DNA of 64,000 nucleotides, from positions 1-64,000 of the forward strand of contig NZ_JAFMPM010000004.1 of the NCBI RefSeq assembly GCF_017349355.1. Direction: 5' to 3'. This DNA is from Thiothrix fructosivorans (GTDB lineage Bacteria > Pseudomonadota > Gammaproteobacteria > Thiotrichales > Thiotrichaceae). Positions 15,479 to 38,452 of the stretch are shown here, piece after piece (position 1 is the stretch's first letter; every line of letters begins with the position of its first letter). The position numbers and the translations under genes were made by a program. Under the pieces are notes generated by a model, which worked only from the letters and a program-made list of their open reading frames with translations, searched no databases and was not told the DNA's origin.

Positions 15479-15575
15479 GGCTCAATATGTGTTTCAGGGT
15501 CTTGTCTTTCTTGGCATTGCAAACGTCACGGACAGCGGTAAAGTTAGCCATTTCCGATAACCAAGGAGAGGCTTC

Positions 15576-15971
15576 ATGACCTCGCTCATCAGTATTTCCA
15601 GCCTGACCAGTGATGCCGCCTGTTTCGAGCAAGTCCGTTCCCTGCGTTGGCCTAATGGGGTGATTTGTCCGCACTGCGGTTCACAGGAAACAATCCGTCG
15701 AGGCAAGAATGACACCCAGCAGGAACGCCAACGTTACCAGTGTAAGGATTGCCAAAAGCGTTTTGATGATCTGACGGGGACGGTGTTTGAAGGTCACCAC
15801 CAGCCGCTGAAGGTGTGGGTGTTGTGCCTGTACCTGATGTCGTTGAATCTGTCCAACCAACAAATCGCCCGCGAATTGGGGTTGAACAAGGATGATATTC
15901 AGGCGATGACGGAACAGTTACGGCGTGGTGTCGAGAAAAAAAACGCCAGTAAGCCTGTCTGGGAATGTTGA
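15576..15971 (+). CDS. IS1595 transposase, N-terminal part (copy A)
   Basis: This 131-residue frame holds the zinc ribbon CPHCGS...CKDC (residues 29-57) and the helical DNA-binding domain (LYLMSLNLSNQQIARELGLN). It ends 28 bases past an A8 run at 15936-15943. Loss of one A joins it to the catalytic frame, giving VEKKTPVSLSGNVEFDELYV. See the companion frame 15925-16512. Confidence 0.85.
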   Translation: MTSLISISSLTSDAACFEQVRSLRWPNGVICPHCGSQETIRRGKNDTQQERQRYQCKDCQKRFDDLTGTVFEGHHQPLKVWVLCLYLMSLNLSNQQIARELGLNKDDIQAMTEQLRRGVEKKNASKPVWEC

Positions 15972-16512
15972 GTTTGATGAACTCTACGTCAAAGCCGGAC
16001 ACAAGGGAAATCCCGAAGCTGTAGCGGATGCAGGGCGTGAAGGCCGCCGCCGCGCCCTGAAAGGTGCGCCGGGACGTGGGACACTGGAAAAGGACAAACC
16101 ACCCATCTTCGGCATGATCCAGCGTTCGGGGGAAGTCATGATCCGTATGCTGGCGAATGTGAAACAAGTGACGATCAAGCCGCTGATTTTGGAAACGGTG
16201 ACGGCAAGCACACTGGTGTACACCGATGAGTACAACATTTACAGCCGGTTGGAGGCATGGGGTTATGCCCACAAAACCGTCAATCATGGTGCAGGCGAAT
16301 ATGCCCGTGATGAAGATGGTGACGGTTTCCATGAAGTTCACGTCAACACGATGGAAGGTTTTTGGTCACTGTTGCGCTCATGGTTACGCCCACATCGGGG
16401 CATCTCACAAGAAAAGCTGCCGTGTTACCTTGCGCTCTTTGAGTATTTGCACAACCTCAGGAAACGGGGGCAAGCAGCCCTACATTCCTTGCTTTCACTG
16501 CTGCTGCGATAA
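15925..16512 (+). CDS. IS1595 transposase, catalytic part (copy A)
   Basis: This frame carries the DDE/N triad region: VEFDELYVK, VYTDEYNIYSRL and NTMEGFWSLLRSWLRPHRGI. It has no convincing start of its own and is most likely made as a fusion with the upstream frame through slippage on the A8 run (+1 direction, equal to loss of one A). The fused protein would be about 310 residues, normal for IS1595 transposases. Confidence 0.85.
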   Translation: MVSRKKTPVSLSGNVEFDELYVKAGHKGNPEAVADAGREGRRRALKGAPGRGTLEKDKPPIFGMIQRSGEVMIRMLANVKQVTIKPLILETVTASTLVYTDEYNIYSRLEAWGYAHKTVNHGAGEYARDEDGDGFHEVHVNTMEGFWSLLRSWLRPHRGISQEKLPCYLALFEYLHNLRKRGQAALHSLLSLLLR

Positions 16513-16535
16513 GACCCTGAAACACATATTGAGCC

Positions 16536-16579
16536 ACAAAGGTTTGCAGTAGCTCCGTACTGACATTGGCCTGCTTCAT
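16536..16579 (-). pseudogene. LysR regulator, 5' fragment
   Basis: The first 14 codons (MKQANVSTELLQTF) run from the ATG at 16579 into copy A of the IS. The rest of the gene is at 38453-39263 on the plus strand. Joined across one copy of the duplication ACCTTTGT the frame reads LLQTFVTVVESGGFIRAAQH, the normal start of a LysR HTH, with a total of 284 codons. The divergent tautomerase gene at 16692 would have shared its promoter region. Confidence 0.88.
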
Positions 16580-16691
16580 AGCGACACCCACAATGATCGT
16601 CAATAACGATTAATTTAAACAGAAAACATCGTTATACACGAACACTATCGGAAGCTAAAGTAGAGCTACGTTAACCAACAGGAGTTTTACC

Positions 16692-17090
16692 ATGCCTTAC
16701 ATTGCAGTCCGTATCAGCAAAGAAGTGTCAGCGACACAAGTCTGGCAACTGGCAACAGGAATCACCGAGATTATGACCAACATCTTGCACAAACAACGGT
16801 CTTTGGTGGCGATTTCCATTGAAAGCATCCCCACCTCCCAATGGTTTATCGCCAGTCAGGACATGGTGGCACTGCAAAACACCACGGCTTTTGTTTCTGG
16901 CATTATCACTGACGGCACGAATACGGAAGCCGAGAAATCTCACGCCATTGCCACCATTTTTGAGCTATTGACCGAGGTGTTGGGTGTGCTGGCGGAAGCC
17001 AGTTATATTGTGCTTGACTGCGTACCTGCAACCGACTGGGGCTACAGCGGTAAAACCCAGGCAAGCCGCAAAGCAGGTAATCAAAAATAG
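16692..17090 (+). CDS. Tautomerase-family protein
   Basis: This 132-residue protein begins MPYIAVRISKE after an AGGAG site. The N-terminal Pro after Met removal (Pro1) is the catalytic base of the 4-oxalocrotonate tautomerase superfamily. Length and the segment NILHKQRSLVAISIESIP fit the longer tautomerase_3/MIF-like or TautS types. It is probably cytoplasmic and acts on keto-enol substrates; the actual substrate is unknown. It was transcribed divergently from a LysR regulator that has since been split by the IS-mediated inversion, so its regulation may be lost. Its stop overlaps the convergent eamA gene by 10 bp. Confidence 0.75.
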   Translation: MPYIAVRISKEVSATQVWQLATGITEIMTNILHKQRSLVAISIESIPTSQWFIASQDMVALQNTTAFVSGIITDGTNTEAEKSHAIATIFELLTEVLGVLAEASYIVLDCVPATDWGYSGKTQASRKAGNQK

Positions 17091-17944
17091 TGTTTACCCA
17101 CAAACACGGTTACTACCACAGCGGTAGCAAAACCCAGCGTTTCAAACTCAATCGCCTCACCCAACCAAACACTTGCAACCAACAACGTAAAAAACGGCTG
17201 CAATAATTGCAACTGACTGATGCGTGTAATCCCACCGATCGCCAACGCCCGATACCACAGGAAAAATCCAAACAATTGACTCACCAACGCCAGATAGAGC
17301 AATCCAAGCCAATATTTTCCCTCAATATCCGTCCAGTCCACAGGTAGCAACCACAATGAAGAAGGCAATGTCAGAGGTAACGCCAAAACCAATGCCCAAC
17401 AAATAACCTGCCAGCCTGCTATATCACGTGCCAAATACCCACCATAGGCATAGCCCACTGCTGCGGACAATCCCGCCAGCAGCAATAAAGCATCACCCGA
17501 TTGAATCAACAGCGAATCGTGCGGCAACGCATACCACACCACCAAAACAGCACCGACCAAAGCCGCTAACCAGAAAATAACCGATGGACGTTCATGCCCA
17601 ATCCATGCCCCGATTAATGCAGTCAGTAGAGGTAAAATCCCCAATACGACACCGCCATGTGAAGCTGGCACAACCTGCATGGCATAAGTTGATAGCACCG
17701 GAAATCCCAACACCACGCCAGCCACCACCCAAATCAAGTGCCGTAATTGCACCGAGGTCGGCAATGGGCTACGAGTCCACCACAACATTATTCCAGCAAG
17801 CATTCCCGCCAATGCAGCACGCCCTAAACCAACAAACAAGGGATTGAAAACGCTGACAACGTATTGACTCGCGGGCAACGTCAAACTGAAAGCAACAACG
17901 ACCAAAGCACCCAATACAACACCCTGCTTCTGCAAGTTTTCCAC
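17081..17944 (-). CDS. EamA/DMT-family transporter
   Basis: This 287-residue inner-membrane protein has about ten hydrophobic segments in two EamA halves (about 8-140 and 150-285), with the typical end of each half (LGEAIEFETLGFATAVVV). EamA proteins export amino acids or metabolites. It is divergent from a MocR regulator at 18084, an arrangement that usually means the regulator controls the exporter. The regulator is broken by an IS66-type element. Full length; start ATG at 17944. Confidence 0.85.
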   Translation of the reverse strand: MENLQKQGVVLGALVVVAFSLTLPASQYVVSVFNPLFVGLGRAALAGMLAGIMLWWTRSPLPTSVQLRHLIWVVAGVVLGFPVLSTYAMQVVPASHGGVVLGILPLLTALIGAWIGHERPSVIFWLAALVGAVLVVWYALPHDSLLIQSGDALLLLAGLSAAVGYAYGGYLARDIAGWQVICWALVLALPLTLPSSLWLLPVDWTDIEGKYWLGLLYLALVSQLFGFFLWYRALAIGGITRISQLQLLQPFFTLLVASVWLGEAIEFETLGFATAVVVTVFVGKHYF

Positions 17945-18083
17945 GTACTTGTTCCTTCTATTAGAAAAATACAGCGTAAAACTTGCCAGCCAACCATAAC
18001 AGATTTAGATTGAAACAAATTAACCAGTACAGTTGAGAGAACAATCATAACTGTATTCATCCAGCACTCGGAAACTGTGACGC

Positions 18084-18886
18084 ATGACCCTTTACGATGA
18101 CATCGCTTCCAAACTCACCGCCCACATCGACAACGGCATCTACCCACAAGGCTCACGCCTGCCCGGTGTACGCCGCCTCAGCCAGCAATTTGGCGTGAGC
18201 ATTTCTACCATTGTGCAAGCGCAGCGCCAGCTCGAAAACCTTGGGCTGATTGAAGCCCGCCCGCGTTCCGGTTATTACATCCGCCTGCGCCCGTGGCTCA
18301 AACCCGCCTTGCCTACCACTTCACAACCCGCCCTCAAACCCACTCCCGTGACGGGGCAGGAACTGGTGTTACAACTCGCACAGGTCACCAGCCACGCCGA
18401 TTTCGTGCAACTCGGTGCTGCCGTGCCAGATGAATCATTCATGCCGATGCGAGCCTTCCAACGCAGCCTCGCCAAAACGGTACGGCACTACGGCAAACGT
18501 GCCGCCAATTACGCCTTCCCGCCCGGTTTGCCCGAATTGCAGCAACAACTGGCGCGACGAATGCACTTGTGTGGCAGCCCCGTTGCCGCCAACCGCATCC
18601 TCATAACCAACGGCTGCCAGGAAGCACTTTCACTCGCCTTACAAACCGTTGCCAGTGCGGGCGACATCATTGCTATCGAATCCCCAACTTTCTACGGATT
18701 GCTGCAAGTCATTGAATCACTGGGCATGAAGGCGTTAGAAATTCCCACCGACCCGCAAGAAGGCATCAGCTTACTCGCCCTCGAACTCGCGCTGACACAA
18801 TGGCCGGTAAAAGCCTGCGTGCTGATCCCCAATTTCAGCAACCCGCTCGGTAGCTTAATGCCAGTGGAGCGCAAGCAACAATTGGT
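18084..18886 (+). pseudogene. MocR-type GntR regulator/aminotransferase, 5' part
   Basis: The N-terminal GntR winged helix (SRLPGVRRLSQQFGVSISTI, then ARPRSGYYI) leads into a fold-type-I PLP aminotransferase domain (RILITNGCQEALSLALQTVA and IPNFSNPLGSLMP). The reading frame ends at an IS66-type insertion after ERKQQLV. The rest is at 20535-21153. Joined with one copy of the 8-bp duplication CAATTGGT, the gene is 473 codons, the normal MocR length. MocR regulators sense PLP or an amino acid and control a nearby transporter or enzyme; here that would be the divergent eamA. Confidence 0.9.
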
Positions 18887-20526
18887 GTAACTGAACAGTC
18901 CCCCCTTACCCAAACGCACTAAATTTGCGACACTCCCCCGATGACCCAACAACTGAAAGACCACAGCCTCAAACAGCTTAACAGCCAGTACCTTGCCAAG
19001 CTCACGCCGGAGGAACTGCTGCACCTGTCGACCAAGTTGTTGCATGACCTGAAAGAAGCGCGGGAACAGATCAACCAAAACTCCAACAACTCCTCCAAAC
19101 CACCCAGCAGCGGTTTCCCGTGGGAAACGTCACCCAAAACGGTGGCTTTGCCCGAAACAGAAGGGGTGGGTGCAGCCAGAGGAAAGCCAACCCCGGAACC
19201 AGAAGCTGTGGCGGGCACAAAGCCAGCCCAACCAGCCAAACGCAAAGCGGGTAAACAACCCGGCGCACCGGGTTATGGTCGGGTATGGCATCCGCCCATC
19301 AATGCAGACGAACACCATTACCCCAGCCGATGTGAAGCCTGTGGCAGGTCCCTGGATGCGGCTGTCTCCCGTATTTATACCGCCTATGACAGTGTGGACA
19401 TCCAGTTTGGCACGGATGGGAACCCCGGACTGACCGTCATCACCACCCGCCACCACCTTCACGATAGCGTATGCACCTGCGGTCATGTGAGCCGCCATAT
19501 CCCGCATCGCCAAGCTCCCGACCCGTTATACCCGGAGGTTGATGTGGGCGAGTGGCGGCTGATTGGGGGCAATCTGGCGGCACTTATTGTCCACCTACGG
19601 CTGCGCTCACGCTTGTCACTGCGTGGCACACAAGAACTGTTGCGGGAGGTGTTGGGCATTCCCCTAAGTGTCGGGGTGTTGCAGCAATGTTTTGAGGAAG
19701 CAGCCGCGAGTGCTTCTCCATTGGAAGATGCCTTGGTGGAAGGGCTGTTGGCAGAAGCCACCGCTGACGGCGGGGTGCTGTATATTGATGAAACCTCTTG
19801 GAAAGAGCGTGGCGAAGCCCTGTGGCTATGGACATTCGTCACCACCCTCAGCGTTTGTTTCTACGTAGGGCAGCGCACCATTGAAATGCTCGACAACGTG
19901 ATTAGCCCCCACTTTGGGGGCTGGCTGATGAGTGATGGCTATGCCGCTTACCGCCACCACCCCAAACGCTTGCGTTGCTGGGCGCACCTGATCCGCAAAG
20001 CCCGTGGGCTGGCAGAATCACTGGACAAAGACGGGCGGACGTTTGGCAACTTCACCCTCGCTTGGCTGAGGGTATTACAGGACGACATTTACGCTTGGCG
20101 GGCAGCAGGCGGCACGGTGGGGACGCAAACCGACGTGATCCGTCAACGCCATCAGGCAAAACTCCTGGAATTCAGGGCATTATGCTTGATCCATGCCGTA
20201 TCTGCCCATGACAAGACGGCGGCACTGGCGAAAGAGTTCATCAATGATTGGGATGCCATTTTCCGAATCCTTGACCACCCGTGGCTTCCCTTGACCAATA
20301 ATGAGGCTGAGCGGGCGTTGCGCCATTGGGTGATCCTGCGCAAAACCAACCATGGCACAAAGAGTGCTACGGGGAGCCGTGCGTTTGCCATGCTGGCCAG
20401 CATCATCGGTACTTGCCGCAAACGTGGACAGTCTGCCTTGGCTTATCTTGCCAGTGTTATTACCGCTGCCCGCGCTGGCTTTGCCCTGCCCGCTTTACCG
20501 CAAGGGGTGGGGATGTGATCAATTAC
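18887..20526 (+). mobile_element. IS66-family (ISBst12-like) insertion sequence, 1640 bp
   Basis: The left end GTAACTGAACAGTCCCCCC and the right end (reverse complement GTAATTGATCACATCCCC) are imperfect inverted repeats starting GTAA, as in IS66. An exact 8-bp duplication CAATTGGT lies at 18879-18886 and 20527-20534. It has a single transposase gene and none of the small accessory ORFs of classical IS66, which fits the ISBst12 subgroup. Confidence 0.92.
18941..20518 (+). CDS. IS66-family transposase
   Basis: This 525-residue protein has an N-terminal helical segment with NSNNSSKPPSS, the mark of IS66 transposases, then a zinc-binding CEACG...CTCGH segment. The catalytic core follows: YIDETSWKERG, LMSDGYAAYRHHPKRLRCWA, and NNEAERALRHWVILRKTNHG near the C-terminus. 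It fills the element almost end to end. It looks intact, and with the exact target duplication it may still be active. Confidence 0.95.
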   Translation: MTQQLKDHSLKQLNSQYLAKLTPEELLHLSTKLLHDLKEAREQINQNSNNSSKPPSSGFPWETSPKTVALPETEGVGAARGKPTPEPEAVAGTKPAQPAKRKAGKQPGAPGYGRVWHPPINADEHHYPSRCEACGRSLDAAVSRIYTAYDSVDIQFGTDGNPGLTVITTRHHLHDSVCTCGHVSRHIPHRQAPDPLYPEVDVGEWRLIGGNLAALIVHLRLRSRLSLRGTQELLREVLGIPLSVGVLQQCFEEAAASASPLEDALVEGLLAEATADGGVLYIDETSWKERGEALWLWTFVTTLSVCFYVGQRTIEMLDNVISPHFGGWLMSDGYAAYRHHPKRLRCWAHLIRKARGLAESLDKDGRTFGNFTLAWLRVLQDDIYAWRAAGGTVGTQTDVIRQRHQAKLLEFRALCLIHAVSAHDKTAALAKEFINDWDAIFRILDHPWLPLTNNEAERALRHWVILRKTNHGTKSATGSRAFAMLASIIGTCRKRGQSALAYLASVITAARAGFALPALPQGVGM

Positions 20527-20534
20527 CAATTGGT

Positions 20535-21153
20535 CGCCCTCGCCCACCGCCACGACATGCTGCTGATCGAAGACGACATTTACGGCGACCTCGGTTTCAA
20601 CGGCGCACGCCCACCCAACTTGCTCAGTATCGAGCCAGAACCCGCCAACGGCAACGTGATTTACTGTGCGTCGTTTTCCAAAACCGTGGCGCAAGGCTTA
20701 CGGATTGGTTGGATGGTATTGCCGGAACGCTTTTTCCGCCGCGCCGAATACCTAAAATACGTCGCCAACCTTGCCGCGCCGACGCTGCCACAATTGGCAC
20801 TGGCGGATTTCCTTACGCACGGTGGCTACGAACGTTATTTGCGCCAAGTGCAAACCCGCTACGCCCGCCAAATTGATTTATTCAGCCACGCCATCAGCCA
20901 GCATTTCCCCGCAGGCACACGGGTGACGCAACCCAAAGGCGGCTTCGTATTGTGGGTGGAATTGGCGGCAGGCACGGATACCTTGCTCATGACGCAAGAC
21001 TTGCTCAAACAAGGGATCAGCATTGCACCGGGGCAAATCTTTTCCGCCACGCAAAAATACCGGAATTGCATCCGCCTCAGTTGTGCGCAGCCGTGGACGG
21101 CGGAAGTGGAGGCGGCAATGGTGAAGGTAGGGCGACACGGCGACGGCAAGTAA
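20535..21153 (+). pseudogene. MocR-type regulator, 3' part
   Basis: This is the C-terminal half of the PLP-dependent domain interrupted at 18886. It holds LIEDDIYGDLGFNG, the Schiff-base lysine in YCASFSKTVAQGLRIGW, and the late block QPKGGFVLWVEL. It continues the frame of 18084-18886 exactly when the IS66-type element and one copy of the duplication are removed. The interrupted product lacks the PLP-lysine and should not function. Confidence 0.9.
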
Positions 21154-21162
21154 TGGTTGGCA

Positions 21163-21492
21163 TTAAAACCCATCAAAACCATTCAGGCTCAAGGCAAAGC
21201 TGACAGCCTGATCAACTTCTGCCAGTTTGTGCATGGAAAGGGTGGTAATCAAAGCCCCCAATTTGCCCTTTTGGACTGTCTGGATGTAATCAAAATTGAT
21301 GGCGCATTCTCGTGGCATACCATCCTGCCCAGTCAATGCTACTTCACTGGGAATGTCGCGGATGGTGGTAGTAATCGGTGCGATGGTTACTTCACCCATA
21401 TACGGGATAATGTCAGAGCGTAGCAAAATCATTACCGGGCAGCGTTTATCCGGTTCTTTGAAGGTATACCAACGAATTTCGCCACGCTTCAT
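21163..21492 (-). CDS. MazF/PemK-family endoribonuclease toxin
   Basis: This 109-residue protein begins MKRGEIRWYTF and has the PemK/MazF barrel signature: RCPVMILLRSD, TIAPITTTIRDIPSEVAL, ECAINFDYIQTVQKGKL. The R-G-E/D start, the central R-P-V and the late S/T and Q-x-x-x-x-K are all present, so it looks active. MazF toxins cut single-stranded RNA. It overlaps the upstream antitoxin by 4 bp (ATGA), implying coupled translation. Confidence 0.88.
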   Translation of the reverse strand: MKRGEIRWYTFKEPDKRCPVMILLRSDIIPYMGEVTIAPITTTIRDIPSEVALTGQDGMPRECAINFDYIQTVQKGKLGALITTLSMHKLAEVDQAVSFALSLNGFDGF

Positions 21493-21722
21493 TGCTCACC
21501 CCATGCCTGTTCCTCTTCCCACACTGAAAATTCGTCGGGGGTAACAGGGTAGCGCAAGTAGCCAGCACGGTGTTTTTCCACCAATTTGCGTTGATGGTAG
21601 AGGGCGATTGCCATGCGCAAGGCTTCACGGGTAAAGGCGGAGCGGTTGGTGTGGCTTTCCTGGACGACCTGATCCAGCTCCATCACCAATTCATCGTCAA
21701 AGGTCATTTGCAAGGTTCGCAT
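21489..21722 (-). CDS. Ribbon-helix-helix antitoxin of the MazF-like toxin
   Basis: This protein is about 77 residues from the ATG at 21722 (MRTLQMTFDDELVMELDQVV), with GGAAAC upstream; an ATG four codons earlier (21734) is possible. The RHH fold is clear (MTFDDELVMELDQVV...NRSAFTREALRMAI). The acidic C-terminus (PDEFSVWEEEQAWGEQ) would bind the toxin. A TATAAT box lies just before the earlier ATG, so the transcript has a very short leader. It neutralises the toxin encoded by the overlapping downstream gene. Confidence 0.8.
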   Translation of the reverse strand: MRTLQMTFDDELVMELDQVVQESHTNRSAFTREALRMAIALYHQRKLVEKHRAGYLRYPVTPDEFSVWEEEQAWGEQ

Positions 21723-21748
21723 AGTGGTTTCCATGTGGATGATTATAG

Positions 21749-21990
21749 GTATATAAGCATGGGTTCACGGAATCGCCACGCCCGCCAAGTACCCAAGCCT
21801 GCTCGGATTGTGGAAGTATTTCCGTCAATAGTCCGAAAGGTAAAGCAGGACTTGGAATAAGAGAATGGCTCTGTGCCGACTGTGGCACGCTGCATGATCG
21901 CGATGTCAATGCAGCCAGAAACCATCTCGCGGCTGGGCATAGCCGTCTCGCAGGAGGAATCTCCTTTAGGGCGGGGATGGTGTCAATCCT
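21749..21990 (+). pseudogene. TnpB (IS200/IS605-group OrfB) C-terminal remnant
   Basis: The plus strand reads PPSTQACSDCGSI, KGKAGLGIREWLCADCGTLH and DRDVNAARNHLAAGHSRLA. This is the zinc finger (two CxxC) and the RuvC-III Asp block of TnpB. The following GGGCGGGGATGGTGTCAA resembles the right end of such elements, which also overlaps the guide RNA in active TnpB systems. The N-terminal two thirds are gone. The remnant sits between the MazEF-like promoter and the MFS gene, and supplies the MFS stop codon. Confidence 0.8.
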
Positions 21991-23227
21991 TGTTGAATGC
22001 CAGCGCAACCCATGCACCCGACAGCAGCATTGCCACCCCGACCAGCCAGAAGGTTACGCTTAAGCCTTGCGCCCATTGTGCCAGCAAGCCCATGCACAAC
22101 GCACCGACGGCATAGCCGAAATCACGCCAGAAACGATAGACGCCGAGTAATGTGCCGCGTTGCATGGGCGGGCTGACATCTGCCACCGCTGCGCCCAAGG
22201 TGGGGTAAAGCATTGCCATGCCGAAACCGATCAATCCGGCTTCCAGCGTCCACAGCCATACGGTATGCGTCAGTACCAGCAGCAATACACCGACGCCACA
22301 CAGCCACATGCCGCCAACAATCAACGGTTTGCGTCCGAAGCGGTCAGAAGCGGGGCCAGTGAGCAGTTGACTTGCACCCCATAGCAGCGCATACACGCCA
22401 ATGATGGAACTGGCTTGCACCAGTGTTAGGTTTTGCGCCACGAACCACACGGGCAGGATGATCCATACCAGTGCGTCGGTGAATTTTTCCACCAATCCGG
22501 CTTGGTTCAGGGCTAACAGGTTGCGGTTTTGCCAACTGGCGTAGAGGAAGGCTTGCCCTAGCGACGGTGGCGGCATGGAGCTGGCAGAAACAGCGGACGC
22601 ATGTGCCAATGCCCAAGGACGCGTTTCCTTGATCATCAGGATTGCCAAGATTAGCCCCGACAAAATGACGATTGTGCCGAACAGGGCTAAACCTTGGCGT
22701 GCGCCGTAGACTTCCACCAGCCATGCGGTGACGACACCCGCGAGCGCCACAGCAGCGTAGCCGGAAAATTCGTTTATGCCGTTGACCAGCCCTTTCTGGC
22801 TCAGGTGCGTCATGTCGAGCTTGCTGTTGAGGGTCATCGACCAGCACAAGCCTTGGTTGACACCGAGCAAGGCGGTAGCGGCAACGACCCAACTCCAGTT
22901 CGGGGCATATAGCAGTAGGAGTGGGATAGGTAGTGCCGCCATCCACCCCGCGACCAATACCCGCTTGCGCCCGAATCGGTCAGAAAACCGCCCTGCAAAC
23001 AGGTTCATCACGGCCTTGACTGCACCAAAGGTGACCACGAAAGTAGTGAGCAAAAAGAACTGTTGCTCGCCCAACCCGAATTCTGTTTTTGCCAAACCGG
23101 GGACGACGATGCGTGTCATGCCGATGGTTAGACCGACGAGGAATACCTGTAATAGCTGGTGGAGGATTTGGGTAAGGTTGGCACGGATGCCGTGTTGGAC
23201 AGGGGGTGAAGTGCTGTGTAGGGGCAT
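21983..23227 (-). CDS. Major facilitator superfamily transporter
   Basis: This protein is about 414 residues from the ATG at 23227 (MPLHSTSPPVQ). Twelve membrane segments are expected. The MFS motif A-like loops are present twice (FAGRFSDRFGRKRVLVAGWM and GPASDRFGRKPLIVGGMW), giving two homologous halves. Substrate is unknown; it resembles drug or metabolite exporters. The final codons VALAFNKD are followed by a TGA that lies in the TnpB-element remnant, so the native C-terminus may have been a little longer. Confidence 0.85.
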   Translation of the reverse strand: MPLHSTSPPVQHGIRANLTQILHQLLQVFLVGLTIGMTRIVVPGLAKTEFGLGEQQFFLLTTFVVTFGAVKAVMNLFAGRFSDRFGRKRVLVAGWMAALPIPLLLLYAPNWSWVVAATALLGVNQGLCWSMTLNSKLDMTHLSQKGLVNGINEFSGYAAVALAGVVTAWLVEVYGARQGLALFGTIVILSGLILAILMIKETRPWALAHASAVSASSMPPPSLGQAFLYASWQNRNLLALNQAGLVEKFTDALVWIILPVWFVAQNLTLVQASSIIGVYALLWGASQLLTGPASDRFGRKPLIVGGMWLCGVGVLLLVLTHTVWLWTLEAGLIGFGMAMLYPTLGAAVADVSPPMQRGTLLGVYRFWRDFGYAVGALCMGLLAQWAQGLSVTFWLVGVAMLLSGAWVALAFNKD

Positions 23228-23320
23228 AAAGACTATCTTTCTAACTTTAACAAGTAACATTCAATTGATAGATTGAATATACGTTGTCTCCCGCCTACAC
23301 TGCAAGCCTCATCATTTTTG

Positions 23321-23947: not shown

Positions 23948-23983
23948 AACACTTCTCCCAATGGTTCAATGGGGCTATCCTAA

Positions 23984-24004
23984 ACCCTGTAGCAACTACA
24001 GGGT
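23984..24004 (-). promoter_or_regulatory. MerR-family operator within the CDF gene promoter
   Basis: ACCCTGTAG and CTACAGGGT are perfect 9-bp arms around CAA, like CadR/PbrR sites. On the minus strand it lies between a TTGACC -35 and a TAGGAT -10 separated by 19 bp, the stretched spacer that MerR proteins correct by twisting DNA. It thus controls the CDF exporter and overlaps the start region of the merR-like gene. Confidence 0.8.
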
Positions 24005-24010
24005 CAAGCC

Positions 24011-24430: not shown

Positions 24431-24494
24431 ACTACTTGCGGTTCAGTCTTACTCATGAAATCATTCAAGCAATTCATTGAATGAGTAAGGCATT

Positions 24495-25160: not shown

Positions 25161-25187
25161 CCATAAAACCGCTACGGAGGATTCCCC

Positions 25188-30161: not shown

Positions 30162-30226
30162 GGTGTTCCCTGTTTCAAAGTGTGTCCCATCATCCTGGCT
30201 TTAAATACCTTCTTTTCCTGCCAGCC

Positions 30227-31441
30227 CTACAGGCTGGCTTGCATCCCGCCGCTGGGGTGCGCCTCATGCGGGACACGGTGTCCTGCGCTCAGCAATTTAC
30301 CCGCCCAGCCCGGACGGGTGGAGTTACCCGCCGCCAGCGGTGCGCCCGTCATGGCGCTGTAACTTTCCGCTTTGCCCTGTTGCCAAGCACCCCGTGTTCC
30401 TTGAGTCATGCGTTGGATGCTACTTCTGACCAAACTCTCCCTGGCTCCTGCCACACCACCCAGTACTTTTTGCCCGGTACTACCGTGGGTAAAGGCGCTG
30501 CCACGCTGGTAGCCTGCGGTGGCATTCCCGGCAAGGCGGGTAGTCGCTCCAGCCGCCGCACGGGTAGCGCCCAGTGCTGTGCCGATGGCAGCACTTCCCG
30601 CCGTCGTGCCAGCCAGCGTATTTTGGGTGGCAGTGCCTGCTGACAGGGAGGGTGATCCCGATACCAGCCCGGCAGCCACGCCGGGGGCATTCCAGGCCAG
30701 CAGGGCGATGGCCCAGGCAATCACCATCACCGAGAAGATTTCATTCCACTCCACATTCCCGTCCACCACGGTGAAGGTCAGCGAACCCGTCAAGGTCGGT
30801 TCTGTTACGGAGAGGATGAAAGCCAGTACCATCAGGCGCACCCCGTAGTTCACCACCCCGCCAAGGGTTTTCTCAGCGATGAACTTGGTGTGCTTGTTGA
30901 TGCCAAACGGTAGCAGGATGGCTGACAGCCCCATGAACAGGTAGAACTCCAGTACGGTCAGGAAGACCTGGATGGCAACCACGGCAAAGGCAATCAGGAT
31001 GATGAAAGCCGAGATCCACAGGATGATCACCTGCCCGACCTGATCCCAGTCATCCATACTGTCAATCATGGTCATGATGGGGGTGATGGCATTGACCCCG
31101 GCAGTGAATATCCGGCTGGGGTCAAGGATGATGGCATGACCGCCAGCCGCACCCCCTGCCCCGCTAATCCCGGCATCCACCATTGAGTAAACGAACACCG
31201 GAGCTAGTGCGGCGAAGTTCGTTACCAACCATAACCAGAACATCATGAACAACAGTTTCTTGATGACATCCATGGTTTGGGCATTGCCACCCAATGCCCA
31301 CCACAGGGCTACCAGCACTAGCTCAATACCTGCCAGTACCCACAGCAAAGCTTGCCCCCCGTTTGCCCAGATCAGCCCATAGGCTGCACTGAATACGGTA
31401 AGGAAATGGTTAAGCGAGTTGGTCAGGATCGCGGTATCCAT
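30227..31441 (-). CDS. trbL: Conjugal transfer protein TrbL/VirB6
   Basis: This 404-residue polytopic inner-membrane protein has at least six hydrophobic segments in residues 20-255. A long Ala/Gly/Thr-rich soluble tail follows (residues 265-404), as in TrbL. It forms part of the inner-membrane pore. The tail varies between plasmids. It lies between trbJ and trbF; gaps are 12 and 65 bp. Confidence 0.88.
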   Translation of the reverse strand: MDTAILTNSLNHFLTVFSAAYGLIWANGGQALLWVLAGIELVLVALWWALGGNAQTMDVIKKLLFMMFWLWLVTNFAALAPVFVYSMVDAGISGAGGAAGGHAIILDPSRIFTAGVNAITPIMTMIDSMDDWDQVGQVIILWISAFIILIAFAVVAIQVFLTVLEFYLFMGLSAILLPFGINKHTKFIAEKTLGGVVNYGVRLMVLAFILSVTEPTLTGSLTFTVVDGNVEWNEIFSVMVIAWAIALLAWNAPGVAAGLVSGSPSLSAGTATQNTLAGTTAGSAAIGTALGATRAAAGATTRLAGNATAGYQRGSAFTHGSTGQKVLGGVAGARESLVRSSIQRMTQGTRGAWQQGKAESYSAMTGAPLAAGNSTRPGWAGKLLSAGHRVPHEAHPSGGMQASL

Positions 31442-31453
31442 GCAGCACCCCGG

Positions 31454-32188
31454 TTACGGCAAGTGGGTCAGCGGGGCAGTGTCATACTCTGCCTTGCCGA
31501 GGTTTTGCAGCATTTTGGTCTTGCGGGCGCGAGCCGCTTCACGGGATTTCTCCTGCTGGGCGGCTTGGGTCGCCTGCAAGCGCCCATTGGCTGCCAGCAA
31601 TTGCAGTGAGTCATTCATCTGTTGTGCCAGTACCCCCATGCTCTGGTTCATAAGCTGGAGCTGGCGAACTTCCCCGTCAGCCGTCTGGCTTTCGGCCAGT
31701 AGGGCATTGACGTTGGTGACGTTGAGGGCGGCCCGTTGCACGATACCCTGCGCGGTCATGGCCTCAAGGGTGGCGTTGTCGATTTCGGTACTCCACTCAT
31801 CCAGCTTGCTGCCAAAGTTGCTGAAGTCGTAGTTATCCCAACTGGCTTGATCCGGGAACAACCCATTGAACTCATTCTGGATATTCCCGACCGATTGGGA
31901 AACCTGCGTCAGCGTCCCCAGCGTATTCTGCATCTCCTGCAATTGCCCGTTGAGGCCGCCTGCCACACTGGCGTACTGGCTGCCACCGATGGTTTGCAGG
32001 GTCTGTGCCATCTGGTTGATCTGCTGGATCTGATTCTGGATCTGGGTGACGGCATGGGTCACTTGCAACAGGCTTTGGGTCAGGTTGCTGTAATCAATCA
32101 CCGGCATGGCTGCCCTGCCTTGGGTGTTGACCAATACCAGCAGCACTACTGCCAGCATCAGCGCCTTCAGGTTGAACGTCCTGTTCAT
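31454..32188 (-). CDS. trbJ: Conjugal transfer protein TrbJ/VirB5
   Basis: This 244-residue protein has a signal peptide (cleaved near GRAAMP, residue 27). A helical Gln-rich body follows (VTQIQNQIQQINQMAQTLQT, then QLQEMQNTLGTLTQVSQSVG). VirB5-like proteins sit at the pilus tip. It starts 4 bp inside the end of trbE (ATGA), so the two are translated together. Confidence 0.87.
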   Translation of the reverse strand: MNRTFNLKALMLAVVLLVLVNTQGRAAMPVIDYSNLTQSLLQVTHAVTQIQNQIQQINQMAQTLQTIGGSQYASVAGGLNGQLQEMQNTLGTLTQVSQSVGNIQNEFNGLFPDQASWDNYDFSNFGSKLDEWSTEIDNATLEAMTAQGIVQRAALNVTNVNALLAESQTADGEVRQLQLMNQSMGVLAQQMNDSLQLLAANGRLQATQAAQQEKSREAARARKTKMLQNLGKAEYDTAPLTHLP

Positions 32189-34719
32189 GCAGCTTTCCTC
32201 CGTGGTGGTTCGAGCAGCTCCACTGCCCAGTCCAGATGGTTGTACTTAAGGATGGCGGCAGCCCAGCGGCTGGCGGGCAACTTCTTTTCGATGGTATCGA
32301 GGAACACTTGCTGTTTGGGGTTGGAGAACCCGGCAAATGCCAGGGCAACCGGCCCCATATCGAGGGTAAACAAGCGCCTGCCCTTGATGCTGCGGTAGTA
32401 GTAATCCCGTTTCTGTTGGGCATTGGCAATAATGTGCAGTTCGGCATCGGTCAGGCCGAAGGTTTTGTAGTACTTCGCCACCTCTGGCACGGTGGCTTCC
32501 GCGTCAGGCAGGAAAATCCGGGTCGGGCAGGCGCTGATAATGGTGGGGCTGATGCTGGATTCGGCTGCATCCGCCGGTTCCTGGGTGGCAAACACCACAT
32601 ACACATTGCGTTTGCGCAGGGTTTTTAACCAGCTTTGCAGGCGGCTGGCAAAAATACCGTGGCGCAGGAACAGCCAGCACTCATCCAGCACCAGCAGGGT
32701 TGGGCGGCCGTCAAAGCGTTTTTCGATACGGTGGAACAGGTACGACAAGGTGGGGATGACAACTTGTTCCCCCATCTCCATCACATGGGCCATCTCAAAC
32801 ATCAGCCAGAAGCTGCTTTTGAGTTCGTCCTGGTCAGCATCAAAGAGCTGCCCGTAGGCTCCTGCCAAGGTGTACAAGTGCAGGGCATCGCGAATATCGG
32901 CATTCTGACAGAGTGCGTGCAAGCCAGTCAGGGTACGTTGTTGGGGTGGTGCATCTGCCAGTGAACGTAACGCGCCTTCCACTTCTTGGGTAATGGCTGG
33001 GGTCAGGCGCAGGTTCTGGAGTTCCAGCATGTCGCACACATAACGCAATGCCCAGTTGCGTTCCCCGTCCCGGTCAATCTGTGCCAGCGGCTGGAAGGCC
33101 ACGGCAGCGTCCTCATTGCCTGGTTCATAATAGCGTCCACCGGCTGCCATGGTGGCGGCGCGTGCCGAACGGTCTTTATCGAAAATGATCACTTGGGCAT
33201 TCGGATACTTCAGCCATTGCAGTTCCAGCATCGCCAGCAAGGTGGACTTACCGGAGCCGGTCGGGCCGATGATGATGGTATGCCCCACATCGCCAACATT
33301 GAGGTTCAAGCGGAACGGGGTCGAGCCAGTGGTGCTGCACACCATGTGCGGGTTGCCTTCACCGCAGGCCGCCAGCAGGTGTGGGTTGGACACATCCCCA
33401 GCCCAGATCGAGGACACCGGCATCATGTGGGCAAGGTTGATGGTGTTGACCAGCGGGCGGCGCACATTGGCACGGATTTCACCCGGCAGGCTGCCTTTCC
33501 ATGCCTCAAACGCATACATGCGTTCATCCTTGACCACAAAGCCGCTGGCATTGAGGATTTTCTTCACCTCATGCAGCTTGTTCATGGCTTGTGGCAGGTT
33601 CTTGTCCCACACCGTCACGGTGGTGGTGTATTGCCCGTAGGCCACCAGATCCATCCCCAGTTCCTGGGATGCGGCATCGGCATCATCAGCCTTGTTCTGG
33701 GCATCGGTGTTCAACAGGCGGCTGGGTTCACCCGCAGCGGTTTCCTTGAGCATGATCCAGATGTTTTTTACCTTGCCTGTCCAGTAGCGGCGCTGGCGCA
33801 GGATGGTGGACATCGCCTCGCCCTTGTCGAGGCAGATAAAGCGGTTGACCCAGCGGTATTCGATATTCAGGTAATTGAGCTTGTCGAGGACGCCGGGTGT
33901 GGTGGTGTGCGGGAAGCCCGTCACTGACAGGGTGGGCATGTAGTAATCGCCAACCATCGCCACTTCCCCCGCCATGAACGGCTGGTCAGGGATATAGGCA
34001 TCCAGGTACATGGGCAGGTCAGGGGCGGCTACCGGATGGGCCTGGGCTGAAAGGGTGGAATGCAGGTAAGACAGCAGTTGCCCGTCATCCAGTACCCCGA
34101 CACTGGGGAACACCGTGTCGAGGATGGTGGTGATTTCGGTGGTGGCACGGATGAAATAATCCAGATCCCGCGCAAACCCATCTTCCAGTTTGGCGTTCTT
34201 GGGGTTTTCGTAGAACAGGTCTACCAGCTTCTTTTCCAGCGGTTGGGGACGTTCCCACACGAAACTCAGGTAGTAGGATGACTCGAAATGTTCTGCCTTT
34301 TCCTCAAAGTTGCCCTGACGTTCGCGGTCAACCAGCCAGGCAACCGCCACCGGCCAGCGTGATTGCGGGTAAACGTCCTGCTGGAAGCGTTGGGCTTCAA
34401 TGAAGTATGTCCAGCCAGTGCCGAGGCGCTTGAGGGCATTGTTGACCTTGGCGGTCACCACCATCATTTCCTCATCGGAGGAGGCTGCCAAATCCGGGCC
34501 ACGGAAGGCAATGGTGCGCAACAGGGTGCGGTTCTTGTTGAGGATAATGCCGGGGGCTACCAGCGCACCCCATTGCAGGTGGTCGGATAGTGCCTCACGT
34601 CGCTCAAGTTTGCGTTCACTCATGCCTTGGCGGGCAACGGTGAATAGGCCAAACCCCAACAGCAGGAAGAAGGTCAGCAGGATGGCAACCAGCAAATAAT
34701 CACTGTGCAGGAAGGTCAT
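32185..34719 (-). CDS. trbE: Conjugal transfer ATPase TrbE/VirB4
   Basis: This 844-residue protein has an N-terminal membrane segment (DYLLVAILLTFFLLLGFGLF). The ATPase domain has Walker A IIIGPTGSGKSTLLAM near residue 488 and Walker B TLLVLDECW near 680, followed by QEPADAAES. VirB4 powers pilus assembly and substrate movement. It is coupled at both ends: its start overlaps trbD and its stop overlaps trbJ, each by 4 bp. Confidence 0.94.
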   Translation of the reverse strand: MTFLHSDYLLVAILLTFFLLLGFGLFTVARQGMSERKLERREALSDHLQWGALVAPGIILNKNRTLLRTIAFRGPDLAASSDEEMMVVTAKVNNALKRLGTGWTYFIEAQRFQQDVYPQSRWPVAVAWLVDRERQGNFEEKAEHFESSYYLSFVWERPQPLEKKLVDLFYENPKNAKLEDGFARDLDYFIRATTEITTILDTVFPSVGVLDDGQLLSYLHSTLSAQAHPVAAPDLPMYLDAYIPDQPFMAGEVAMVGDYYMPTLSVTGFPHTTTPGVLDKLNYLNIEYRWVNRFICLDKGEAMSTILRQRRYWTGKVKNIWIMLKETAAGEPSRLLNTDAQNKADDADAASQELGMDLVAYGQYTTTVTVWDKNLPQAMNKLHEVKKILNASGFVVKDERMYAFEAWKGSLPGEIRANVRRPLVNTINLAHMMPVSSIWAGDVSNPHLLAACGEGNPHMVCSTTGSTPFRLNLNVGDVGHTIIIGPTGSGKSTLLAMLELQWLKYPNAQVIIFDKDRSARAATMAAGGRYYEPGNEDAAVAFQPLAQIDRDGERNWALRYVCDMLELQNLRLTPAITQEVEGALRSLADAPPQQRTLTGLHALCQNADIRDALHLYTLAGAYGQLFDADQDELKSSFWLMFEMAHVMEMGEQVVIPTLSYLFHRIEKRFDGRPTLLVLDECWLFLRHGIFASRLQSWLKTLRKRNVYVVFATQEPADAAESSISPTIISACPTRIFLPDAEATVPEVAKYYKTFGLTDAELHIIANAQQKRDYYYRSIKGRRLFTLDMGPVALAFAGFSNPKQQVFLDTIEKKLPASRWAAAILKYNHLDWAVELLEPPRRKAA

Positions 34720-34988
34720 GGCAGCTTGTCCTTGGTGTGGCGCAGGCCAGCACGGACAACTGCCATGAAATGCGGGTCAAACCGGGTCAGGCGAGCAAGC
34801 CCCCAATGTCCCAGCATGGCTACCGGAAGGATCCATAACTGGTGCATCCCAATGGTCAGGGCAGCCACGATTGTCCAGTAAATGAACCCTACCGTGCGAG
34901 GCAGGCCAGCCACCAAGACCGGCTCCACCAGTGACAGGTGGACAGGGGCTTCATAGCCTTCGGGGTGGTTGGCCTGCCGTTGGCTCAT
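34716..34988 (-). CDS. trbD: Conjugal transfer protein TrbD/VirB3
   Basis: This 90-residue protein has two close hydrophobic segments (VGFIYWTIVAALTIG, LWILPVAMLGHWGLARLT) and the preceding VHLSLVEPVLVAGLPR typical of VirB3. It is an inner-membrane partner of VirB4, coupled by 4-bp overlaps to trbC and trbE. Confidence 0.87.
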   Translation of the reverse strand: MSQRQANHPEGYEAPVHLSLVEPVLVAGLPRTVGFIYWTIVAALTIGMHQLWILPVAMLGHWGLARLTRFDPHFMAVVRAGLRHTKDKLP

Positions 34989-35320
34989 ACGCTTGCACCA
35001 CCGCCAAAGCCGAGGAAGGTCAAACCCCAGGTGGTTGCGGCAAACGCAATGGACAGGCCGAATACGACCCAGAGGGCTTTACGCATGATGCCACCACCTT
35101 CGGAGAAGGCCAAACCAAGGCCGACGAACACAATGGCTATCGTACCGAGTACCTGTGCTACAGGCCCAGTCAGGGAAGCCAGCAGGTTCTGGAGCGGGGT
35201 TTCCCACGGCAAACCGCCGCCACCGCCACCGGCTGCGGATGCATCAGCACCCGCCAGCATCAACAAGGCAAATAACAGGGGGGATTTTAGGCGGGACAAA
35301 TGACGGGCATAGTGCGGCAC
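34985..35320 (-). CDS. trbC: Conjugal transfer pilin TrbC/VirB2
   Basis: The start is most likely the GTG at 35320 (VPHYARHLSRLKS), which has AAGGAG 9 bases upstream; an in-frame ATG at 35350 would encode that RBS. The protein is about 111 residues. A signal peptide ends near ADASA, then comes a Gly-run, PWETPLQNLLASLTGPVAQV, and two hydrophobic segments. This is the pilus subunit. It is the first gene of the cluster: no trbB (VirB11 ATPase) lies upstream, where it is normally found. Confidence 0.85.
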   Translation of the reverse strand: MPHYARHLSRLKSPLLFALLMLAGADASAAGGGGGGLPWETPLQNLLASLTGPVAQVLGTIAIVFVGLGLAFSEGGGIMRKALWVVFGLSIAFAATTWGLTFLGFGGGASV

Positions 35321-35695
35321 TGCTTTAGTCTCCTTGTGCAGGTTAATCAAGGTTTGTGTGGTGTGGGCGATTCCTATGAGGGATGGATGCCCTGCGACCG
35401 TCTGCCCTTTATCCGGGAAAACAGATGGACGGCAGGAGATTAACCTTATTTTTTGAATGATGTGAGTGCAAACCCGATGAACTGATAACAGTTGTTTATG
35501 AACGGAAAGTTACAGCAATTTCGTTGTTGTCGATGTGTTCAGGAAGGACGATTTTCAGGTTATTGCGTTGGGCCACTTATAACCTAGGATGTGCTGAAGG
35601 ACTGTTTCGTAGTTATCGGCCACTTTGGCTGGAAATGGCTAATATCAGCCAGTTATTCGCCAGTGATTCCCTAGTTGCACCACTGGCGTGACAAA
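35321..35695. other. Region between trbC and fic, no gene seen
   Basis: No ORF with a recognisable product and no remnant of trbB is visible. CGCCAGTG and CACTGGCG form an 8-bp inverted repeat near 35660-35690, just after the fic stop, and might help end the fic transcript. The trb promoter must lie here, but I cannot pick a convincing box. Confidence 0.35.
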
Positions 35696-36748
35696 TCATG
35701 CTTCACTTTTCCGGGTGTACCAGGTTCCGCGTCCTTGCCCATGCCGCTGGATATGCCCGTCTTCCAGCAGTTGGGTAATACGCAGTTTCAGGGTGGCGCG
35801 TGGGGTATGGGTCAGTTCTTCTGCCTGTTTCATGGTGATGCGCCCGTTGTCCTTGAGGTATTCCAGGATTTTGACGCTATCGGCAGGCAGGCTTTCCCAG
35901 CCCCGGTTATCCGCCATCTTCGCCGCCAGATGGTCTTTCTGGGCTTTCAGGGAACGCAGGAAGAATGATAGCCATGGCAACCAGTCGGGGGCTTCCTTGT
36001 CGAGTGTACCTTGGGTGCGGCGCAGGGCGAGGTAATAGCTGTCTTTGTTGCGCTCGATGATGCTTTCCAGCGAGGTGTAAGGCACATAGCTATACCCGGC
36101 TTTCTGCAGCAACAGGGTTGCCAGCACCCGCGACAGTCTACCATTGCCGTCTTGGAATGGGTGGATGGCGAGGAACACCACGTTGAACATGCCAATGGTC
36201 AGCAGCGGGTGTTGGCTGCGGTCTTCCAGTGTGGTGCGTGTCCAGTCCACCAGTGCCTGCATTTCCCGTGGGGTGTCAAACGGAGTGGCTGTCCTGAAAA
36301 TCACCCCAAGGCTGTTGCCCGATGCGTCGAAGGCTTCCACATGGTTGTTCAGGGTCTTGTATTGCCCCCGGTGGCGTGTGTCCTTGTCGCTATGGCGTAG
36401 CAACATGGCGTGGAATTGTTTCAGGTAGTTCTCGGTCAGGGGAATGTCGTCATGGCTTTGGAAAACGGTTTCCATCGCTTGTGCGTAGCCTGCCACCTCC
36501 TGTTCATCACGGGTCTGGAGCGATTGCTTGCCGATATTCCCCAGCAGCTTTTCCACCTCAGCATCGCTCAGCTTTGCCCCTTCGATCCGGGTGGATGAGC
36601 CAATGCTTTCCACGGTTGCCACCCGGCGCAGGGCTTCTAGGCGTTCCGGGGTCATGCCGTGGATGGCTTTCCAGCCGCCCCGGAACTCGTCGATCTCGGC
36701 AATCAGCTTGAGCATTTCCGGGGTGATGTGCAGGGAGTGGGTTTTCAT
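35696..36748 (-). CDS. Fic-family protein (adenylyltransferase-like) with C-terminal winged helix
   Basis: This 350-residue protein has the Fic motif HPFQDGNGRLSR near residue 198, with all key residues (H, D/E, N, G, R). An N-terminal inhibitory motif SSTRIEG near residue 52 (S/TxxxE) marks a self-inhibited class II Fic protein. The C-terminal 60 residues are a winged helix (ILEYLKDNGRITMKQAEELT then TPRATLKLRITQLLEDGHI). Such proteins move AMP from ATP to target proteins, often as toxins with built-in restraint. It is divergent from the radC 5' half. Confidence 0.88.
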   Translation of the reverse strand: MKTHSLHITPEMLKLIAEIDEFRGGWKAIHGMTPERLEALRRVATVESIGSSTRIEGAKLSDAEVEKLLGNIGKQSLQTRDEQEVAGYAQAMETVFQSHDDIPLTENYLKQFHAMLLRHSDKDTRHRGQYKTLNNHVEAFDASGNSLGVIFRTATPFDTPREMQALVDWTRTTLEDRSQHPLLTIGMFNVVFLAIHPFQDGNGRLSRVLATLLLQKAGYSYVPYTSLESIIERNKDSYYLALRRTQGTLDKEAPDWLPWLSFFLRSLKAQKDHLAAKMADNRGWESLPADSVKILEYLKDNGRITMKQAEELTHTPRATLKLRITQLLEDGHIQRHGQGRGTWYTRKSEA

Positions 36749-36832
36749 GAATAGCCAAAAAAGTGAAAAGCGTTAGCCAATAATAGCCGCAATTAGCCAA
36801 TAAGCAAACATTCCGTATCTGTAGGAAGCTAC

Positions 36833-37187
36833 GTGCATCCCCTGCGGGATGGGCTGTTACGGGTTCCGCTTCGCTGCATCCCTACGGGACTTTTGCCCTC
36901 CTCATCCCTGATGCCTTTCAAAACCACCGTTCGTTCCTCACGCAGGTTTTTCCGCGCTCTGCTTGGCTTGCGGGTAGCCAGACCCGTGCCTGGACTGGCT
37001 GCGGGTTGGTGCTTTTGGGGCACTGCCCCCCGCTGCTTCCATGACAGGCTGCGTGGACGGAGAGGTATCCCCAATCTTCCGCGCTGCGCTTGTGCAGACC
37101 GGGTGATCCCCCTCCCCTCCGTCCATCATGGATGCCGCTACCCCCGTTCTCGCCGAAGGCATAGCCGCCAGGCGGCAGTGACCTGAT
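36833..37187. repeat. GC-rich leader upstream of radC with interspersed repeat modules
   Basis: No gene is seen. Read on the minus strand it holds GGGGGATCACCCGG, CTGCACAAGCGCAGCGCGGA and TTGGGGATACC, shared with the repeats at 56711-56884 and 58899-59073. It also holds GGGTCTGGCTACCCGC and GTGAGGAACGAAC, shared with 14745-14830. It is dense in short palindromes, so RNA structure upstream of the radC start is likely. Confidence 0.5.
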
Positions 37188-37209
37188 TTTTTTAAGGAGG
37201 ACGGAAGAC

Positions 37210-37387
37210 ATGAAAGCAGCAATGGAAGGACGACCACAAATCCCGGTTTTTGATACACCGGCTTACAAATTACTGGGCAGGGGATCACAAGCCTTGTCTG
37301 ATGCTGAATTGCTTAGCCTGTTCATGGGGGAGAACGTGGAGTTGGCACGCACCACGTTACTGTTTAACTTCCAGTCATTACGGGAGT
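37210..37387 (+). pseudogene. radC: radC 5' half, separated from its 3' half
   Basis: The ATG at 37210 follows a strong AAGGAGGACGG site. The translation (PVFDTPAYKLLGRGSQALSD, AELLSLFMGENV, LLFNFQSLREW) is the N-terminal UPF0758 domain of RadC. It is cut after codon 59 by IS1595 copy B. The missing JAB domain is at 14980-15478 on the minus strand; see that entry for the exact rejoining. Confidence 0.9.
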
Positions 37388-37410
37388 GGCTCAATATGTG
37401 TTTCAGGGTC

Positions 37411-37998
37411 TTATCGCAGCAGCAGTGAAAGCAAGGAATGTAGGGCTGCTTGCCCCCGTTTCCTGAGGTTGTGCAAATACTCAAAGAGCGCAAGGTAACA
37501 CGGCAGCTTTTCTTGTGAGATGCCCCGATGTGGGCGTAACCATGAGCGCAACAGTGACCAAAAACCTTCCATCGTGTTGACGTGAACTTCATGGAAACCG
37601 TCACCATCTTCATCACGGGCATATTCGCCTGCACCATGATTGACGGTTTTGTGGGCATAACCCCATGCCTCCAACCGGCTGTAAATGTTGTACTCATCGG
37701 TGTACACCAGTGTGCTTGCCGTCACCGTTTCCAAAATCAGCGGCTTGATCGTCACTTGTTTCACATTCGCCAGCATACGGATCATGACTTCCCCCGAACG
37801 CTGGATCATGCCGAAGATGGGTGGTTTGTCCTTTTCCAGTGTCCCACGTCCCGGCGCACCTTTCAGGGCGCGGCGGCGGCCTTCACGCCCTGCATCCGCT
37901 ACAGCTTCGGGATTTCCCTTGTGTCCGGCTTTGACGTAGAGTTCATCAAACTCAACATTCCCAGACAGGCTTACTGGCGTTTTTTTTCTCGACACCAC
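37411..37998 (-). CDS. IS1595 transposase, catalytic part (copy B)
   Basis: Identical to the copy A product; carries the DDE/N catalytic blocks and would be made only as a frameshift fusion with the N-terminal frame. Confidence 0.85.
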   Translation of the reverse strand: MVSRKKTPVSLSGNVEFDELYVKAGHKGNPEAVADAGREGRRRALKGAPGRGTLEKDKPPIFGMIQRSGEVMIRMLANVKQVTIKPLILETVTASTLVYTDEYNIYSRLEAWGYAHKTVNHGAGEYARDEDGDGFHEVHVNTMEGFWSLLRSWLRPHRGISQEKLPCYLALFEYLHNLRKRGQAALHSLLSLLLR

Positions 37999-38347
37999 GC
38001 CGTAACTGTTCCGTCATCGCCTGAATATCATCCTTGTTCAACCCCAATTCGCGGGCGATTTGTTGGTTGGACAGATTCAACGACATCAGGTACAGGCACA
38101 ACACCCACACCTTCAGCGGCTGGTGGTGACCTTCAAACACCGTCCCCGTCAGATCATCAAAACGCTTTTGGCAATCCTTACACTGGTAACGTTGGCGTTC
38201 CTGCTGGGTGTCATTCTTGCCTCGACGGATTGTTTCCTGTGAACCGCAGTGCGGACAAATCACCCCATTAGGCCAACGCAGGGAACGGACTTGCTCGAAA
38301 CAGGCGGCATCACTGGTCAGGCTGGAAATACTGATGAGCGAGGTCAT
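37952..38347 (-). CDS. IS1595 transposase, N-terminal part (copy B)
   Basis: Identical to the copy A product: zinc ribbon plus helical DNA-binding region, ending just after the A8 slippage run (T8 on the plus strand at 37980-37987). Confidence 0.85.
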   Translation of the reverse strand: MTSLISISSLTSDAACFEQVRSLRWPNGVICPHCGSQETIRRGKNDTQQERQRYQCKDCQKRFDDLTGTVFEGHHQPLKVWVLCLYLMSLNLSNQQIARELGLNKDDIQAMTEQLRRGVEKKNASKPVWEC

Positions 38348-38452
38348 GAAGCCTCTCCTTGGTTATCGGAAATGGCTAACTTTACCGCTGTCCGTGACGT
38401 TTGCAATGCCAAGAAAGACAAGACCCTGAAACACATATTGAGCCACCTTTGT

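Follow-up and report, generated by a model that had tools for sequence, protein, structure and literature searches.

Two split genes and an inverted segment between identical IS1595-family copies on a Thiothrix fructosivorans plasmid

How did two genes on one plasmid come to be broken, with their pieces some 21 kb apart and each piece beside a copy of the same insertion sequence (IS)? The stretch of DNA that raises this question (the window) is the first 64,000 nucleotides of contig NZ_JAFMPM010000004.1 from Thiothrix fructosivorans (assembly GCF_017349355.1), that is, the start of contig C4 (153,578 bp) in a genome of 4,355,037 bases and 8 contigs, and it belongs to plasmid pTfr153 of strain ATCC 49748 (NZ_CP072750.1). 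Here radC and a LysR-type regulator gene are each split, and two identical copies (A and B) of a 1057-bp IS1595-family element lie at the broken ends. Compared with the order in relatives, the segment between the copies, 16536–37387, is turned round, and the two copies, one at each of its breakpoints, have opposite orientations. The features concerned are the following, by position and strand.

14980–15470, minus: 3′ piece of radC, with a RadC match (E = 2.7e-45), aligned with intact radC of relatives
15471–15478, plus: left flank of copy A, ACTCCCGT, the radC target in reverse strand
15479–16535, plus: IS copy A, 1057 bp, IS1595 family by Pfam domains (Zn_ribbon_IS1595 and DDE_Tnp_IS1595 matches), with 28-bp imperfect terminal inverted repeats
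16536–16543, plus: right flank of copy A, ACAAAGGT, the LysR target in reverse strand
16536–16579, minus: 5′ piece of the LysR-type gene, 44 bp, joined to the 3′ piece in 5/5 relatives examined
16536–37387, no strand: inverted segment between copies A and B, 20,852 bp
37210–37387, plus: 5′ piece of radC, with a UPF0758_N match (E = 3.3e-5; 24.3 bits, under the curated cut-off of 27.1), aligning with intact radC of relatives
37380–37387, plus: left flank of copy B, ACGGGAGT, the radC target
37388–38444, minus: IS copy B, identical to copy A by sequence comparison
38445–38452, plus: right flank of copy B, ACCTTTGT, the LysR target
38453–39263, plus: 3′ piece of the LysR-type gene, with LysR_substrate and HTH_1 matches
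54323–55379, plus: third identical IS copy, serving as a control, with matched direct repeats AAGAAAGA

Copy A and the reverse complement of copy B show 0 differences over 1057 bp, and the 28-bp terminal inverted repeats of the element are 96% identical. The 8-bp target repeats are crossed: the left flanks of A and B are reverse complements of each other, as are their right flanks, and the repeats are thus exchanged between two inverted copies instead of framing each one. Five identical copies of the element were found in the genome, and the three outside the inversion pair are flanked by identical direct 8-bp repeats (AAGAAAGA, TCCTTGGA and TTTTTTAA). Two exact reverse-complement pairings of 8-mers would arise by chance at about 5e-9, a figure that takes (4^-8)^2 over ~20 pairings and does not count the rejoined genes; chance pairing was rejected because the three control copies have normal repeats and because rejoining restores two genes. 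Rejoining the flanks gives a radC of 669 nt (222 codons plus stop) and a LysR-type gene of 855 nt (284 codons plus stop), with both frames open. The initial annotation had described the copies, their strands, their 1057-bp length and the crossed flanks, all of which proved exact to the base on re-check, and its statement that rejoining restores both genes in frame held as well.

Judged by sequence comparison, the window gene order is derived, because radC and the LysR-type gene are whole in the relatives examined. For radC these were two independent plasmid-type loci (L041 and L048, which are the same plasmid, and L047, the other); the remaining radC matches, 70–77% chromosome-type or partial homologues, were left out of the insertion comparison. 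The gene is uninterrupted in both, with one copy of the 8-bp target in each, there ACGGGAAT, one base off ACGGGAGT. It continues from window position 37385 to 15478 in T. subterranea plasmid NZ_CP133216.1 (G013:C1, 151,453 bp) and in genome G004. The annotated order on the T. subterranea plasmid is trb genes, fic, intact radC, a SWIM zinc-finger gene and a helicase, and in the window the 5′ piece of radC adjoins fic at one breakpoint while the 3′ piece is on the SWIM/helicase side at the other. The fic and trb side matches G004 as a single 11.3-kb piece; the SWIM and helicase genes had no match in the stretch of G004 examined, and the far side is complete in T. subterranea only.

The second breakpoint gives the same direction. 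Of 15 other genus members searched, five had a full-length match to the LysR-type gene, always on contigs of 3.6–4.6 Mb. In all five no insertion breaks the gene, which runs on towards the tautomerase side and has a single copy of the target (identical in three, one base different in two). Un-inverting the segment rejoins window positions 21110–16536 and 38445–43042, which are consecutive on the 4.26-Mb contig of G013 except for the IS66 insertion of the window and the matchless stretches 39262–40384 and 41361–41800. The rejoined block has the same order in G008, with ~2.3 kb of other DNA inside, and occurs in G015 without the EamA stretch, the match reaching only 41789. No IS was found at either breakpoint site in the 2 radC and 5 LysR relatives, which carry the other order. 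The proposed inversion of 16536–37387 is therefore supported and polarised by relatives with both genes whole; such genomes, which the initial annotation had suggested seeking, were found for radC (2/2) and for the LysR-type gene (5/5), and the present order is not ancestral in the relatives examined.

Could the unique flanks have been wrongly joined across identical IS copies during assembly? We consider this very improbable. Short reads would be unable to resolve copies A and B, and the two deposited plasmid versions are not independent and lie 247 bp apart at another place, which makes a slip elsewhere possible. On the other side, the entire 24.4-kb stretch matches NZ_CP072750.1 in one piece at 100%, and even a wrong join would imply IS insertions in both genes. 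Sequencing used PacBio libraries with 10–20 kb inserts, far above 1057 bp, and Nanopore reads later to join the chromosome (PMC8570282, which also gives 153,578 bp for pTfr153 and 1,938,437 bp for a chromosomal contig). Assembly error was set aside as unlikely on this insert size and on the agreement with the second, non-independent version. As a separate observation, the window version holds 247 bp more than NZ_CP072750.1 at 46230–46479, the linearisation point of that record, possibly through over-trimming in the deposited record; the two versions are otherwise identical over 153,328 aligned bases.

To place the pair among other copies of the element, we surveyed 45 complete copies in four Thiothrix genomes, with both ends found by pattern 900–1200 bp apart. 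Candidate scoring covered up to 7 per genome and the best 40 of 72 in G007, in which all 26 full-length end pairs of this variant were analysed. The survey left out copies that are partial or have internal deletions, L109 (a split copy in G008), those of G006 and G007 that have GGCTCATTATG as a variant end, and G001, G004, G005, G010, G011, G022, G033 and G059, which gave fragments or distant matches only. Target repeats were exact over 8 bp in 33 copies, 7 bp long in 2, crossed in 2 (the window pair) and unmatched in 8. Simple insertion is the usual outcome for this element, given the 33 copies with matched 8-bp repeats and the 2 with 7-bp repeats. The only reciprocally crossed pair among the 45 is that of the window, and inversions between copies are therefore rarely retained, by whichever route they form. 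A single shared flank was seen in G007, between L102 and L106, both within the 8 unmatched copies. These two and L105 form a group of three IS copies in 6.8 kb (L106, L105, L102; G007:C4:1323600-1330400) whose outermost flanks share the direct repeat TTTCATAA, as if the three-copy unit had been inserted whole, as a composite transposon.

As to how the inversion arose, we think it probable, with some reserve, that two separate IS insertions were followed by homologous recombination between the inverted copies. The IS would have inserted into radC at target ACGGGAGT and, in a separate event and in opposite orientation, into the LysR-type gene at target ACCTTTGT; homologous recombination between the 1057-bp inverted copies would then have flipped the intervening DNA, breaking no gene beyond those already broken by the insertions. 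The inversion would then look like a neutral by-product of IS activity, and a return to the earlier orientation would be possible in principle. We favour recombination because direct-repeat insertion is common and because identical inverted repeats of 1 kb, separated by 21 kb on one plasmid, are a good substrate that recombines readily. The initial annotation took this course of events as shown, which is too strong: it fits the sequence, but replicative inversion leaves the same repeats.

Several points weigh against the recombination route. Neither the two-insertion intermediate in original order nor a single-insertion intermediate was found in the relatives compared (2 for radC, 5 for the LysR-type gene), the survey yielded no second pair with reciprocally crossed repeats, even with 26 copies in one genome, and a one-step replicative inversion predicts the same sequence. 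This last alternative, possible if rather doubtful, is a single intramolecular replicative transposition in which an IS in radC (or in the LysR-type gene) attacks the other site in inverting orientation, duplicating IS and target and inverting the intervening DNA in one step, without homologous recombination. It predicts the observed crossed repeats exactly (X-IS-Y′ ... X′-IS-Y), and recombination of X-IS-X ... Y-IS-Y gives that same string; crossed target repeats alone cannot separate the two. Three of the five IS copies lie on a plasmid that makes up 3.5% of the genome, a distribution that local jumping would favour, as arrival on the plasmid would too. IS1 is an element that forms cointegrates. 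The title of a 2009 paper by Siguier and colleagues reportedly links the IS1595 family to IS1. Alternative transposition pathways have been mentioned for IS1 (PMC7986276), and IS26 inversions with inverted 8-bp target duplications have been published under a replicative reading (PMC7056807, PMC11047700). Most copies in the genus, however, carry normal direct repeats, which makes the extra assumption unnecessary, and no account settling how IS1595-family elements transpose was found in the literature searched.

Homologous recombination between the copies would also be the basis of a reversible switch, in which both orientations keep arising among the cells of a population, to some benefit, and the window represents one of the two forms. 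The same substrate of identical 1-kb inverted repeats 21 kb apart speaks for such a switch; the other form is absent from both deposited versions, and flipping restores neither radC nor the LysR-type gene, both of which would keep an IS. We regard it as the most improbable of the readings, and nothing seen in the sequence suggests selection on the inversion itself. Loss of the plasmid radC need not matter, because another radC homologue is present elsewhere in the genome (contig C8, 73%).

The element that moved may deserve more attention than the inversion. Its transposase, at 15576–16512 in copy A, is split in all 5/5 genome copies into two open reading frames (ORFs) that are not in frame with each other and have a run of eight A residues (A8) at their junction. 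ORF1 has the N-terminal zinc ribbon PF12760 (Zn_ribbon_IS1595; E = 6.1e-14, 52.1 bits against a cut-off of 25.4) and ORF2 the ISXO2-like catalytic domain PF12762 (DDE_Tnp_IS1595; E = 3e-27, 95.9 bits against a cut-off of 27). An N-terminal zinc ribbon is described in all IS1595 subgroups except IS1016, target duplications in the family are usually 8 bp, and a single transposase gene is a usual rather than diagnostic feature (PMC8101967). The target duplications found here are typical of the family (33/45 exact over 8 bp), and the transposase gene of the window's copies, as read in the DNA, is divided.

Among the 45 complete copies the run is A8 in 28 (G000, 5/5; G006, 1/1; G007, 20/26; G008, 2/13), A7 in 14 (3 in G007 and 11 in G008) and shorter in 3, and 14/14 A7 copies have one 316-codon open frame. 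A8 copies have multiplied: five are identical in T. fructosivorans, with no A7 copy among the matches in its genome, and 13 are identical in G007, where A7 copies that could help them are also present. In the G006 copy, which is 84% identical, the A8 run is retained and neither frame is closed. As raw counts, 34/54 of its differences in ORF1 and 63/88 in ORF2 fall at the third codon position, and synonymous changed codons stand to the others as 29 to 17 in ORF1 and 61 to 18 in ORF2; when ORF2 is read in the other two frames the pattern reverses, to 9 to 71 and 6 to 71. The same third-position trace would be expected if selection had acted on an A7 ancestor.

A further 20 loci were checked for a frame break at an A run. 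Four of the closer relatives among them (L055, L056, L121 and L124; 57–77% protein identity in pieces) break frame at A8, ~30 residues further on; of these, L124 is damaged in frame at other points too, the second half of L055 contains a stop, and L121 shifts in the other sense. Contrary to a slippage pattern, L067 and L126 break frame without such a run at the break; L125, L133, L135, L136 and L142 match in one frame, L123 is ambiguous, and the other eight are fragments or uninformative. Taken as sequence patterns, these data suggest IS1-like recoding, that is, programmed slippage at A8, in an IS1595-family element; plain mutation, too, often strikes A runs. Programmed slippage was not found described for IS1595-family elements among the papers that the literature searches listed. 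It is conceivable, and in our view unlikely, that an IS1595-family element making its transposase by A8 slippage (an IS1-like short N-terminal product plus a fusion) produced the inversion in one replicative step, its relatives having the slippage site at two places in the gene.

By annotation or Pfam, the inverted segment contains a tautomerase, an EamA/DMT transporter, a MocR-like gene split by an IS66 element, a PemK-like protein, MFS and cation transporters, an ArsR regulator, an MBL-fold protein and fic, together with an annotated trb-type set (trbC/VirB2, VirB3, trbE, trbL, trbF, trbG and trbI/VirB10). The initial annotation placed fic and the whole trb cluster within the block; fic and much of the trb-type set are there, but a type IV secretion system (T4SS)-family ATPase, traG and a DUF3363 protein are annotated on the plasmid outside it. 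The IS66-type element (18887–20526) lies within the MocR-like gene (GntR plus aminotransferase) between 8-bp repeats CAATTGGT at 18879–18886 and 20527–20534, and its insertion site is uninterrupted in G008, G013 and G015. The stretches 16536–21124 and 38445–43042 (by annotation MocR, EamA, tautomerase, LysR, ilvE-like, cupin and PhzF) form a block that is on chromosome-sized contigs in relatives and on the plasmid in T. fructosivorans. No second DNA-level match of the LysR piece was found in the T. fructosivorans genome, and a chromosome-to-plasmid transfer of the block to a place beside the trb genes is possible. Elsewhere on the plasmid, NZ_CP072750.1 53465–62564 carries an annotated CRISPR-Cas set including type I-D Cas7/Csc2, with Cas6, Cas4-like, Cas1 and Cas2.

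An IS-bounded inversion on a plasmid is an ordinary, already known kind of rearrangement. This one shows cleanly how a few IS copies can reorder a plasmid, its direction being fixed by outgroups at each of the two breakpoints. It also recalls that recombination and replicative inversion cannot be told apart by crossed target repeats alone. Whether this IS1595-family element limits itself by frameshifting, like IS1, is a question on which its recoded-looking transposase bears.

Among known systems, the closest likeness in arrangement is that of IS26 inversions in resistance plasmids and genomic islands, which also have oppositely oriented identical IS copies and 8-bp target repeats in opposite orientation (PMC7056807, PMC11047700). 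Replicative transposition has been invoked for them, as has homologous recombination between inverted copies (PMC7056807); IS26 belongs to another IS family, and the present case concerns a plasmid of a sulfur bacterium with no annotated drug-resistance gene in the inverted block. ISApl4, of the IS1595 family, shares the 8-bp direct repeats, the IS1595-type DDE transposase and a high copy number, but is 712 bp long with one 654-bp transposase gene (PMC12561309), as against 1057 bp and a split gene here. For the transposase, IS1447 of the IS3 family likewise builds its protein from two frames through slippage on an A run; it is of another family, and slippage at A9 was measured there (PMC6211511), whereas here it is inferred. 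IS1 (InsA and InsAB′) has N-terminal zinc-ribbon and C-terminal DDE parts in two frames that meet at an A run, as in our element, but uses −1 frameshifting at A6C (PMC12428005), whereas joining the two frames at A8 would take a +1-type shift or a transcript one A short.

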